Source of the DNA: Synechococcus sp. BL107
Lineage (GTDB): Bacteria; Cyanobacteriota; Cyanobacteriia; PCC-6307; Cyanobiaceae
DNA: 64,000 nt
NCBI RefSeq assembly: GCF_000153805.1
Contig: NZ_DS022298.1
Span: 2,112,827 to 2,176,826, forward strand
Direction: 5' to 3'
Part shown: positions 60,212 through 64,000 of the stretch, in pieces
How the letters are laid out: each line of letters starts with the position of its first letter
Numbering within the stretch: the stretch's first letter is position 1
Made by a program: the position numbers and the translations under genes
The notes under the pieces: model-generated
The model's database searches: none
Told to the model about the DNA's origin: nothing
The model's input: the letters and a program-made list of their open reading frames with translations, nothing else

Positions 60212-61378
60212 TTAGTTTTCAGTGCCAAATGGTGATGGCAACCCAAGAACGCGGAAAATCGACATCGCATTGACGATGGGATTTAAAGGCTCTAATGCTG
60301 CATTCATACCGTCTGTAATCTGAGTCCGAACATTGCGGTCGACCACAACGATGTCGCCTTGTCTCAAGGGAGGGTTGTTTGGATTACTCAGCAATGCATC
60401 AGGGCTGTACGTCATTTTCTTGACGGATGTAGATCCATCACGTTCTGTACGAATCACAGCAACACGCGCAATGCTGCCGCGAATCGGTTCAATGCCACCA
60501 GCTTTCAGGACTGCTGCCGCCAATGGTGAATTTGGTGGGACCTGAATTGAACCAGGGCTTTTAACCTCTCCAATCACCGCTACTTGAATCAATGCAGGAG
60601 AAAAATTAGAAATTGATCCCGCTATGAGATCGGTCGTCGTGGGTGAATCAGCTCGAACAACCCGAACACTATCCCCGTCATAAATAAGTGGATTTGGTGC
60701 ATGCCCACCATTCTTCAAAACGGTTAGGTAATCAAATTTGTAGCGTTTCGACTGTCCACCATTGGTGTAGCTCGGACGCATAAGTTCCAAGCTGGAAAGA
60801 TCTCCGACAGCCGTAATTCCTCCAGCGCGAGCTATCACATCAACAAGCGTTGGCCAACCACCACCACTCCCAAGTCCTTGATCGATATCAGCTTTACTGG
60901 CATTGACTTGCAACGTGTAAATACCAGGCCTCTCGACTTCACCAGTCACTGTGACCCTGATTGGGCGTTGTCGGGCCAAATCCAAATAGACAATCGGACG
61001 CCGGAGAATCTGCCTGTAGCCCTTGGTAATTTTTTGGCGCGCCTCCTCCAGCGTTAATCCCCACACCAAGACTGTGCCCAAGCGGGGAAGATTGATCGTG
61101 CCATCGCTCAAAACCTCAACCTTTGCTTCGTAGCCTTCAATCTTGAACACCGACATCACCAATTGGTCTCCAGGTGCAAGCCGATACCGATAGGACGTTG
61201 CCGTGAATCGGCTGATCGGAGCTGCTGCGGGTTCAACGGTCTTGACAGACCTCTCTGGGACTTTGAGCCAATTGCGCCTCTCCTCCGACCTTGCTGCTCC
61301 TACCCCAAGCGAGGACAGGGTCAACATCCAAGCGACGACCATGCCTGCAGATAATCCGGACCGAAGAATGAGGGACAT
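60212..61378 (-). CDS. Wza-like polysaccharide export protein
   Basis: The 388-residue product has a likely signal peptide (SLILRSGLSAGMVVAWMLTL, residues 2-21). The polysaccharide-export domain follows with YRYRLAPGDQLVMSVFKIEG and LEEARQKITKGYRQILRRPI. SLBB-type repeats lie at about 150-320 (VTGEVERPGIYTLQV, VIGEVKSPGSIQVPPNSPLA). It would form or line the outer-membrane or periplasmic exit of a surface polysaccharide. It is divergent from the acyltransferase-ACP-ketosynthase cassette by 74 nt. No glycosyltransferase or Wzc is next to it. Confidence 0.9.
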   Translation of the reverse strand: MSLILRSGLSAGMVVAWMLTLSSLGVGAARSEERRNWLKVPERSVKTVEPAAAPISRFTATSYRYRLAPGDQLVMSVFKIEGYEAKVEVLSDGTINLPRLGTVLVWGLTLEEARQKITKGYRQILRRPIVYLDLARQRPIRVTVTGEVERPGIYTLQVNASKADIDQGLGSGGGWPTLVDVIARAGGITAVGDLSSLELMRPSYTNGGQSKRYKFDYLTVLKNGGHAPNPLIYDGDSVRVVRADSPTTTDLIAGSISNFSPALIQVAVIGEVKSPGSIQVPPNSPLAAAVLKAGGIEPIRGSIARVAVIRTERDGSTSVKKMTYSPDALLSNPNNPPLRQGDIVVVDRNVRTQITDGMNAALEPLNPIVNAMSIFRVLGLPSPFGTEN

Positions 61379-61452: not shown

Positions 61453-62394
61453 ATGGCGTTACAAGAATCCGATCAACAGGCTGACGTACTGCTTCCTTCG
61501 GGGTGGAACGGTACAAACCCAACGAGCACCAGCCTTTTTACCCTTGACAGCCTCGAATTGCATTTGATTTCAGGCTCACAATTTGCCCCCATCGCTGATG
61601 CAGTTGGCACATTGCGGGAATCGACATACCGCCAACAGCTCTCCGGTTCAGGCAACACTCGTGACCTGGATGGTCGAGATCCCTTTTATGACCACCTCTT
61701 ACTTTTAGATCTTGAGAGCGGAGCCCTAGCGGGATCGGCCCGACTTCAATTCATCCCCCAAGCAACACCGCTTGAACAGCTTCCAGGAGGTGAACACTCA
61801 TATCTTGAACACGTTTACCCAGGCATCAAAGCGCTGCTGGCTGAGCGACAACATCACGTTGAGATTGGGCGGGTCGCCCTCGCGCAACGATTCCAGCGGC
61901 AGCCTCATTCCCTGATGGCGCTCTTCCGTGGGGGGCTCTTAATTTCGTCCCTCTCGGGCTACAGCACCCTGCATGGCCTTGTCTCCTACAACCATTTCGC
62001 GTTCTCCGACACTGTCAACAACGCATTTTTAAGTGCGCTAATGCGGCCTCCTTATCGCCGCGCAGATCTTGGGCTGCCAGGGCCGCGTCACCCTGTTCCT
62101 TCCATCCAAAGCAGCGACAAACCCCATTCGATCGACAACGTCCAGGCCCTAGAACTGGCGCTGCGCAACGACTACGGCGAAGATTTCCGCTTGCCGGTGT
62201 TGCTACGGCAGTACTTCAACCTGATGGGAGCACAGGTGTGCAACCTTTCGCTGGCGAAGGATTTCAATCAAATCACTGAAATTTTGATGGCAGCAGAACT
62301 TAAGAGTCTTCCCAAGGAGCGCCTGAATTACTTCATTGATGTACCCCATCAACCGATCTACCAGCACTTCAGCTGGTACCGAGGCGAAGCCTGA
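61453..62394 (+). CDS. OlsB-like (GNAT-type) acyltransferase
   Basis: The 313-residue product has YDHLLLLDLESGALAGSARL, a GNAT-like strand pattern with the acyl-donor region, and VEIGRVALAQRFQRQPHSLM resembling OlsB N-acyltransferases (EIGR...). The extended N-terminus (residues 1-45) and a C-terminal region of about 100 residues are additional. OlsB enzymes make lyso-ornithine lipid using acyl-ACP; here the amine acceptor is unknown. It is followed by a dedicated acyl carrier protein and a ketosynthase, which supports acyl-ACP as donor. Confidence 0.72.
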   Translation: MALQESDQQADVLLPSGWNGTNPTSTSLFTLDSLELHLISGSQFAPIADAVGTLRESTYRQQLSGSGNTRDLDGRDPFYDHLLLLDLESGALAGSARLQFIPQATPLEQLPGGEHSYLEHVYPGIKALLAERQHHVEIGRVALAQRFQRQPHSLMALFRGGLLISSLSGYSTLHGLVSYNHFAFSDTVNNAFLSALMRPPYRRADLGLPGPRHPVPSIQSSDKPHSIDNVQALELALRNDYGEDFRLPVLLRQYFNLMGAQVCNLSLAKDFNQITEILMAAELKSLPKERLNYFIDVPHQPIYQHFSWYRGEA

Positions 62395-62432
62395 GCCAGC
62401 TGTCGCTGGTAACTTGGCCTGACAACCGTCCG

Positions 62433-62723
62433 GTGCTCCTATTGGCCGAGGTACACCCCGACAAGCACGCGCTCGAGGGACGCCTTGTGGAGATCCTGCA
62501 TCGCATCTCAGGAACCGACCCTGCCTTAATTAAGGCGGATGCTCGTTTGATGGAAGATATCGGTATCGATTCGCTGGGCTTCTACGAGATTCTGATCGAG
62601 GCCGATACCTGTTTCGGAATTCGCATCCCAGAGGAAACCCTTCTGCAATTCCGAACCGTTGGTGATATTCAGACCCATCTTGAGTCGCTAGAGCTCACAC
62701 AACCAAATGCCGAAAACGCCTGA
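62433..62723 (+). CDS. acyl carrier protein (specialised)
   Basis: The 96-residue product starts at GTG 62433 and has the phosphopantetheine site GIDSLGFYEILIEAD with Ser47. The residue after the DSL motif is Gly, instead of the Asp/Glu of the housekeeping AcpP, so it is likely a dedicated carrier. It overlaps the ketosynthase gene by 17 nt and follows the acyltransferase by 38 nt. Confidence 0.9.
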   Translation: MLLLAEVHPDKHALEGRLVEILHRISGTDPALIKADARLMEDIGIDSLGFYEILIEADTCFGIRIPEETLLQFRTVGDIQTHLESLELTQPNAENA

Positions 62724-63978
62724 ACGTTCGGCCATTGTTGGCTGGGGTTCAATTACCCCCATCGGCTCAAATCCCTGCAGCACCTGGGAAGCAGCCCTAA
62801 GCGGCCGCTCGGGAATCCAAGCGCTTCACGACCCCTGGTGCAGCGACCTGGCAACACGCATTGCTGGACGGGTAGATGAATCTGCCTTTGCATCGTTGGA
62901 GCCCATCCTGAGGAGACGCGCTGACCGCTGTGCACAGCTTGCTTTGTTAGCAGCGCGACAGGCTTGGGGCATGGCATTAGAGCGAGTGCCGGGGGTAGAT
63001 CCCGATCGGGTCGCTGTCGTCATCGGGACGGGGATTGGTGGGCTCTCCACCATGCATGAACAGCACATCCAACTCTCCGAAGGGGGCGCATCAAGGGTCA
63101 ATCCCCTCACCGTGCCAATGCTGATCCCCGACGCTCCCGCGGGCCAAGTCGCCATCGACCTTGGACTCCATGGCGGAGCTCATGCACCAGTCTCGGCCTG
63201 CGCTTCTGGCGCTGAAGCCATGATGCTGGCCCAAATGTTGCTCAACGATGACCGAGCCGATCTTGTGCTTGCTGGAGGAACAGAAGCGCCGGTGAACCGA
63301 CTCGGCCTCGTGGGGTTCTCCGCCATGCGCGCTTTGTCATCCCGTAATGACGCACCGGAGCAGGCCTCACGTCCTTACAGCATCGACCGAGACGGCTTTG
63401 TGTTGTCAGAGGGGGCCGGGATTCTTGCCATGATGCGCGATCGGGATGCCCCTAAAGGTGCAACGCTCGGCTGGCAACTCGCGAGTGGCAGCAGCAGCGA
63501 TGGGCATCACATTGTGGCGCCAGAGCCACAAGGGATCCAGGCCAGTCGAGCGATTAACGATGCCCTGCGACGGGCGGACATCCACCCTGAAGATCTCTGT
63601 GCAGTTCAGGCTCATGCCACTGGCACCTCTCTCGGGGACCTTGCAGAAGCCAGAGCCATGCATCGCAGCTTGAGAACCGTTGCAGACTCCCTTCCGGTGT
63701 ATGCACCAAAGGGGCAGCTTGGTCACCTCCTCGGAGCCGCCGGATCCGTTGAAGCGATCTTGGGATTACAAGCCTTAAGTGAAGGAATCTTGCCTCAAAG
63801 CATCAACGCCGACCCTCTCGATCCAGGTGTTGACTTAGCAGTCACTACATCGGAACCAGTGAAGCTGAAAGAACATCAGTCCGAGCGGTTCATGCTCAAA
63901 AATGCCTTCGGATTTGGCGGTCATAACATCAGTCTGATTCTTGCTGCTCCCTGTAATAAGCCTGAACAGCTCGCCTAA
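62707..63978 (+). CDS. FabF-like beta-ketoacyl-ACP synthase
   Basis: The 423-residue product has the Cys-His-His triad: Cys165 (APVSACASGAEAMMLAQM), His303 (VQAHATGTSLGDLAEA) and His340 (APKGQLGHLLGAAGSVEAI). The N-terminus (MPKTPERSAIVGWGSITPIG) is a KAS-II pattern. It elongates an acyl chain bound to an ACP, probably the one encoded just upstream. It is a paralogue type rather than necessarily the housekeeping FabF, which is not identified here. Confidence 0.9.
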   Translation: MPKTPERSAIVGWGSITPIGSNPCSTWEAALSGRSGIQALHDPWCSDLATRIAGRVDESAFASLEPILRRRADRCAQLALLAARQAWGMALERVPGVDPDRVAVVIGTGIGGLSTMHEQHIQLSEGGASRVNPLTVPMLIPDAPAGQVAIDLGLHGGAHAPVSACASGAEAMMLAQMLLNDDRADLVLAGGTEAPVNRLGLVGFSAMRALSSRNDAPEQASRPYSIDRDGFVLSEGAGILAMMRDRDAPKGATLGWQLASGSSSDGHHIVAPEPQGIQASRAINDALRRADIHPEDLCAVQAHATGTSLGDLAEARAMHRSLRTVADSLPVYAPKGQLGHLLGAAGSVEAILGLQALSEGILPQSINADPLDPGVDLAVTTSEPVKLKEHQSERFMLKNAFGFGGHNISLILAAPCNKPEQLA

Positions 63979-64000
63979 ATCCCTCCCGATCGCGAAAATC

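Follow-up and report, generated by a model that had tools for sequence, protein, structure and literature searches.

A GNAT–ACP–ketosynthase cassette in Synechococcus is one half of a conserved picocyanobacterial capsule-initiation island

What is made by a GNAT N-acyltransferase, an acyl carrier protein (ACP) and a ketosynthase (KS) that are encoded side by side in Synechococcus sp. BL107? The three genes lie near the end of the window, a 64,000-nucleotide stretch comprising bases 2,112,827-2,176,826 of one 2.285-Mb contig. A sequence-only reading of the window took them for a dedicated route to an unusual acylated product such as an aminolipid or lipopeptide, possibly connected with a divergent Wza-like export gene. 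We find that GNAT–ACP–KS does not stand alone as an aminolipid cassette: it forms half of a conserved island for capsule initiation, with convergent gene sets, and this island extends beyond the window.

The three consecutive open reading frames are intact, as that reading had described them, and the last two overlap by 17 nt (62707-62723); the gap between GNAT and ACP is 38 nt (Table 1). The divergent Wza-like gene is 74 bp from the GNAT gene. At the other end, a PlsC-like gene converges on the KS gene, and their 3' ends overlap by 50 nt (63929-63978). The island thus reads wza, diverging from GNAT–ACP–KS, which converges on the PlsC-like gene, the KpsS-PlsC fusion and KpsC. In most relatives, the tail-to-tail overlap between KS and the convergent PlsC/KpsS gene is 22-53 nt, and this overlap may help to keep both halves of the island together. 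A promoter and terminator scan returned nothing exceeding chance.

Table 1. Features of the capsule-initiation island, numbered by position in the window.
Feature	Position	Strand	Basis
Wza/KpsD-like outer-membrane polysaccharide export gene	60212..61378	-	Poly_export + SLBB domains
OlsF/GlsB/OlsB-like GNAT N-acyltransferase, 313 aa	61453..62394	+	ORF + domain matches
Second acyl carrier protein (ACP2), 96 aa, GTG start	62433..62723	+	PP-binding match
ACP Ser47 codon, predicted phosphopantetheine site (GIDSLG)	62571..62573	+	sequence; invariant in 33
Second FabF-type ketosynthase (KS2), 423 aa	62707..63978	+	ketoacyl-synt domains
KS catalytic Cys165 codon	63199..63201	+	sequence; invariant in 33
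PlsC-like acyltransferase 3' end, 266 aa, runs past window to about 64729	63929..64000	-	L002:2756-3556
KpsS-PlsC fusion, 712 aa, outside window	about 64748-66886	-	L002:3575-5713
KpsC-like protein, 665 aa, outside window	about 66804-68801	-	L002:5631-7628

The GNAT belongs to Pfam Acetyltransf_5 (PF13444; E 3e-11). It also matches the OlsB-like half of the NCBIfam OlsF model, which spans a two-domain protein, with an E-value of 3e-14 and 52 bits, far under the model cut-off of 620. In the GNAT family as a whole, the OlsB-like half of OlsF is matched by 33 of 33 members, GlsB by 20 and OlsB by 8, and the protein of the window itself has no OlsB or GlsB model match at an E-value of 0.01. The name 'OlsB-like' given to it earlier is appropriate at the level of the superfamily but not as a statement of orthology. 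PEP-CTERM/exosortase N-acyl amino acid synthases were rejected as a class, as TIGR03694 is matched by one of the 33 members only, and weakly (E 0.002).

Residues R55, D73, D76, E137, and R140 of the GNAT are invariant in both alignments, and R97 is kept in at least 90% of the rows. The pair E137-x-x-R140 resembles Glu101 and Arg104, which are listed for LasI-type synthases (PMC9654057). The alignment profile has no match among solved structures, even at an E-value of 1. The remaining conserved residues presumably map onto LuxI. The AlphaFold2 model of the GNAT (mean pLDDT 90, pTM 0.88) has PDB neighbours that include the GNAT domain of CurA, EsaI, BjaI, RpaI, MesI, and FeeM (TM by target about 0.53-0.66); general acetyltransferases are matched with comparable E-values. 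The predicted fold is thus near acyl-HSL and N-acyl-amino-acid synthases, among others, and both residues and fold fit an acyl-ACP N-acyltransferase without proving it, in keeping with the acyl-ACP use that had been proposed. With EsaI, BjaI, and FeeM among the neighbours, the product could also be a capsule-regulating acyl signal, of either the acyl-homoserine-lactone or the N-acyl-amino-acid type. However, the domain searches give no match to autoinducer-synthase families, the conserved gene set contains no regulator, and a dedicated KS, a dedicated ACP, and a KpsS-fused PlsC exceed the needs of a signal, which makes such a role very improbable.

The carrier and the ketosynthase are both second copies. 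ACP2 matches PP-binding with an E-value of 5e-10 and is 31% identical to the housekeeping AcpP over 58 aa. KS2 has the N and C ketoacyl-synt domains and is closest to FabF, with 385.5 bits against a curated fabF cut-off of 493.75; by that cut-off it is not an ortholog of the housekeeping FabF, which is encoded elsewhere and is 38% identical. The active sites are intact, as had been noted from the sequence: Ser47 of ACP2 and Cys165 of KS2 are invariant across 33 homologues, and His303 and His340, which complete the Cys-His-His triad, are kept in at least 90% of the rows, among them one copy that a contig end cuts short. The host genome encodes exactly two PP-binding proteins and two ketosynthases, namely the acpP-fabF pair and the ACP2-KS2 pair. 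The genome has no more than these, which rules out an assembly line for a polyketide (PKS) or lipopeptide; with a Kdo-type capsule-initiation locus downstream, the lipopeptide product suggested earlier is not supported. No dedicated KR, DH or thioesterase is found in the module, and the strand of GNAT–ACP–KS holds only these three genes before the convergent genes, with no multi-domain fatty-acid/PKS-type synthase.

The number of ketosynthases (PF00109) is one in each of seven GNAT-less genomes and two in all five cassette genomes tested. Three further loci keep GNAT, KpsS-PlsC, and KpsC but are missing ACP2 and KS2, and their genomes have one KS each, so that no second ketosynthase lies elsewhere. 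The module can therefore do without the carrier pair. These loci imply that housekeeping acyl-ACP is able to substitute.

The sequence-only reading proposed a search of the downstream sequence for more fatty-acid, PKS, or O-acyltransferase genes. PlsC-like O-acyltransferases are indeed present there, as a free copy and a KpsS-fused copy. PKS genes are not; in their place is a Kdo-type capsule-initiation locus, and the downstream genes are in this sense related to the cassette. The KpsS domain (Capsule_synth) matches the NCBIfam KpsS model NF050054 with an E-value of 1e-82, under the equivalog cut-off, and is fused to the second PlsC-like domain. KpsC matches Capsule_synth in four stretches, as a two-module KpsC. 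The two PlsC copies are 43% identical and both keep the HxxxxD motif (HQNPLD and HRSPCD). PlsC is fused to KpsS in nearly all loci; in some, such as L065 and L041, Pfam recognises no PlsC domain in the KpsS protein, and L041 has PlsC as a separate gene. Plasmid homologues match the KpsS part alone (residues 35-465 in the matches listed), and nowhere on a plasmid does a match reach 80% of the fusion. Anatomically, the strongest hint that the two systems are joined is this fusion of an O-acyltransferase with the Kdo transferase that initiates the linker. Because the downstream locus is of the Kdo-type capsule kind and the O-acyltransferase is fused to KpsS, the likely product is a capsule lipid end and not a free aminolipid. 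Of the earlier proposal, the dedicated acylation route is supported, whereas a stand-alone cassette is not.

KpsC is followed by a PseF-like cytidylyltransferase, three DUF6716 putative glycosyltransferases, a CBS-NeuB-SAF-TIM-barrel protein, and a sulfotransferase. The DUF6716 genes are in tandem (L002:8374-12014), and divergence is much faster in the middle one than in the first (29-52% versus 53-78% identity outside the closest relative). The NeuB-containing protein, of 762 aa (L002:12056-14344), combines CBS, NeuB, SAF, and a xylose-isomerase-like TIM barrel, and sulfotransferases come next; its domains suggest that the capsule sugar is a nonulosonic acid.

Among 251 picocyanobacterial genomes of the family, the GNAT is found in 36, KpsS in 37, and both in 35 (Fisher p 3e-39, uncorrected for phylogeny). 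In the sole GNAT genome without KpsS, the contig ends inside KS. In the two KpsS-only genomes, the gene is either a fragment (G103, whose assembly is 88% complete) or matched only marginally (G166, E-value of 4e-4), and four genomes of the same genus have neither gene. The order purB, wza, GNAT–ACP–KS and, convergent to it, (PlsC), KpsS-PlsC, KpsC recurs in most of the loci of 35 other genomes, several of which are cut by contig ends, with homologues that are 30-86% identical. As wza adjoins the cassette in nearly all loci whose contig reaches that far, the suspected link to the Wza-like gene is borne out in the form of a conserved neighbourhood. Could the product nevertheless be a free membrane aminolipid of the ornithine- or glycine-lipid type, made by GNAT and PlsC, with a tie to the capsule that is positional only? 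The OlsF, GlsB, and OlsB matches and the PlsC-like O-acyltransferases alongside the GNAT would be expected of such a pathway, but the GNAT is strictly co-present and co-absent with KpsS, PlsC is joined to KpsS in nearly every locus, and a review of aminolipids makes no mention of cyanobacteria (PMC11631085). We consider a free aminolipid improbable.

A motif-limited scan for the GNAT in 84,980 species genomes returned picocyanobacteria, the closest named relatives being marine Synechococcus and Cyanobium, and one contig filed under Bifidobacterium. The latter (CALPNT020000098.1), from a Bifidobacterium breve MAG, bears a picocyanobacterial GNAT gene and is very likely mis-binned. When cyanobacteria were searched more broadly, the matches outside the family were all weak and partial.

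To compare divergence, pairwise protein distances were ranked, PurB distances were partialled out, and significance was obtained by matrix permutation (2000 permutations). The partial correlations of GNAT, KS, and ACP with KpsS or KpsC are 0.53-0.77 (p 0.0005, the minimum possible). For the GNAT, the values are 0.62-0.65 with KpsS/KpsC, 0.21 with the cytidylyltransferase, and 0.10 with FtsW. The DUF6716 glycosyltransferase GT5 is intermediate (0.47-0.58; 0.47 with GNAT). Although adjacent, Wza correlates only weakly with GNAT or KS after PurB control (0.26-0.27). Given the strong correlation with KpsS/KpsC and the weak correlation with the adjacent wza, the co-evolving unit is, as far as protein distances tell, GNAT–ACP–KS together with KpsS(-PlsC) and KpsC. 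Physical linkage alone can yield co-divergence, and linkage contributes here, yet the adjacent wza falls outside the unit.

The same values bear on whether the chain ends up at the lipid end or on the polymer. Phosphatidylglycerol could be the KpsS acceptor, with GNAT, ACP2, and KS2 N-acylating a capsule substituent, either an amino sugar or an amino acid, and PlsC re-acylating lyso-phosphatidylglycerol. E. coli group 2 capsules end in (lyso)phosphatidylglycerol (PMC10148158), the downstream region holds genes for nonulosonate-type sugars, which may offer amines, and GNATs acylate many amines. However, the GNAT tracks KpsS/KpsC and not the sugar-activating gene, although it does correlate moderately with GT5, and its closest families acylate free amino acids. 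Such a decoration of the capsule is unlikely, if less so than a free aminolipid.

A capsule lipid end of the Kdo type needs a supply of Kdo. KdsA, B, C, and D are all encoded elsewhere in the genome, with kdsD-kdsC, kdsB, and kdsA within about 10 kb. WaaA (PF04413), which would attach Kdo to lipid A, is absent from the genome, and the LPS of Synechococcus WH8102 and CC9311 is Kdo-free (PMC4515613). Therefore, Kdo is available to KpsS and KpsC, which would be the simplest consumers of CMP-Kdo. KpsE-like and KpsM-like genes are located 157 kb from the locus. The 267-aa ORF that adjoins them in the kpsT position (L126:7185-7988, at about 2.019 Mb of genome C1) lacks both a match to ABC ATPases and an obvious Walker A lysine, and is possibly a degenerate KpsT.

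GNAT–ACP–KS is probably the acyl-supply and N-acylation arm of the picocyanobacterial KpsS/KpsC capsule-initiation module, which would make or remodel the lipid end of the capsule. More tentatively, the capsule anchor may be a diacyl aminolipid that replaces phosphatidylglycerol and is made by GNAT, ACP2, KS2, and a bifunctional KpsS-PlsC that also starts the Kdo linker. KpsS elsewhere acts on phosphatidylglycerol, a lipid that cyanobacteria have, which counts against an aminolipid anchor. OlsB-type GNATs N-acylate amino acids from 3-hydroxyacyl-ACP, and the PlsC-family OlsA adds the second chain (PMC11631085); the first Kdo is attached to a lipid by KpsS and extended by KpsC (PMC10148158). 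By analogy, we infer the enzyme activities, the amine, the 3-hydroxy chain, and the use of the product as KpsS acceptor rather than as a later decoration, as follows. KS2 would load and elongate a chain on ACP2, and the housekeeping FabG would yield 3-hydroxyacyl-ACP2. The GNAT would move the chain from ACP2 onto an amine, and the KpsS-fused PlsC-type domain, here together with the free paralogue, would add a second, ester-linked chain. The KpsS domain would then add the first Kdo to this lipid and KpsC would lengthen the Kdo linker, on which the capsule polymer would be built for export via KpsM/KpsE and the Wza-like protein.

A phylum-wide survey of 2015 argued that cyanobacteria may be without a Kdo linker, given how confined KpsS/KpsC are in their distribution (PMC4594306); a locus with kdsA-D and no WaaA provides a concrete test case. 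Nearly all ABC-exported capsules are described as sharing the Kdo-phosphatidylglycerol end, Vi being the one outlier known (PMC10148158, PMC9597891). An acyl system that travels with KpsS/KpsC in abundant ocean phototrophs suggests another anchor chemistry, and an aminolipid anchor, if true, would be a new kind of capsule anchor. The module is present in ocean and freshwater picocyanobacteria, where an unusual fatty capsule anchor is probable, and a role in the capsule would give a function to the ACP and the ketosynthase that are the sole additional copies in these small genomes.

The capsule itself in marine Synechococcus and capsule-dedicated acyl systems (RkpF, VexE) are already known. The published kps-like capsule clusters Syn-eCAG_008/009 of marine Synechococcus, reported as absent from some clades, probably include part of the present locus (PMC10119275). 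The main text of that paper names no acyltransferase, no acyl carrier protein, and no ketoacyl synthase. The combination of OlsB-type GNAT, ACP, KS, and KpsS-PlsC was not found in the open-access literature searched, which includes the main text of PMC10119275.

Among known systems, the Sinorhizobium meliloti rkp-1 capsule operon, although from a different phylum, shares a dedicated ACP and fatty-acid enzymes that serve the capsule. It has a multi-domain fatty-acid/PKS-type synthase, whereas one KS is found here, and we know of no OlsB-type GNAT in it. Its dedicated ACP is RkpF (Epple 1998, as cited in PMC9386255). The PEP-CTERM/exosortase-linked N-acyl amino acid synthases (Craig 2011, as cited in PMC11631085) share an acyl-ACP-type GNAT tied to a cell-surface system. 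Ornithine and glycine lipid synthesis (OlsB+OlsA, OlsF, GlsB+GlsA; PMC11631085) shares the GNAT superfamily (OlsF-C/GlsB/OlsB) beside PlsC-family O-acyltransferases (PF01553, as OlsA); in contrast, the present GNAT scores far below the OlsF cut-off, has its own ACP and KS and an O-acyltransferase fused to a Kdo transferase, and is always in a capsule locus. E. coli-type group 2/3 capsule initiation (PMC10148158, PMC11041684) shares KpsS, a dual-module KpsC, a complete Kdo pathway, and KpsM- and KpsE-like proteins, but here KpsS is fused to PlsC, GNAT, ACP, and KS are added, and an unrecognisable protein occupies the kpsT position. The Vi antigen lacks a Kdo acceptor, and its VexE, a protein with an LPLAT domain, acylates the C-6 position of UDP-GlcNAc (PMC9597891); it nevertheless shares a capsule-dedicated acyltransferase, the use of acyl-ACP, and a non-standard lipid end, which here are predicted from the genes.
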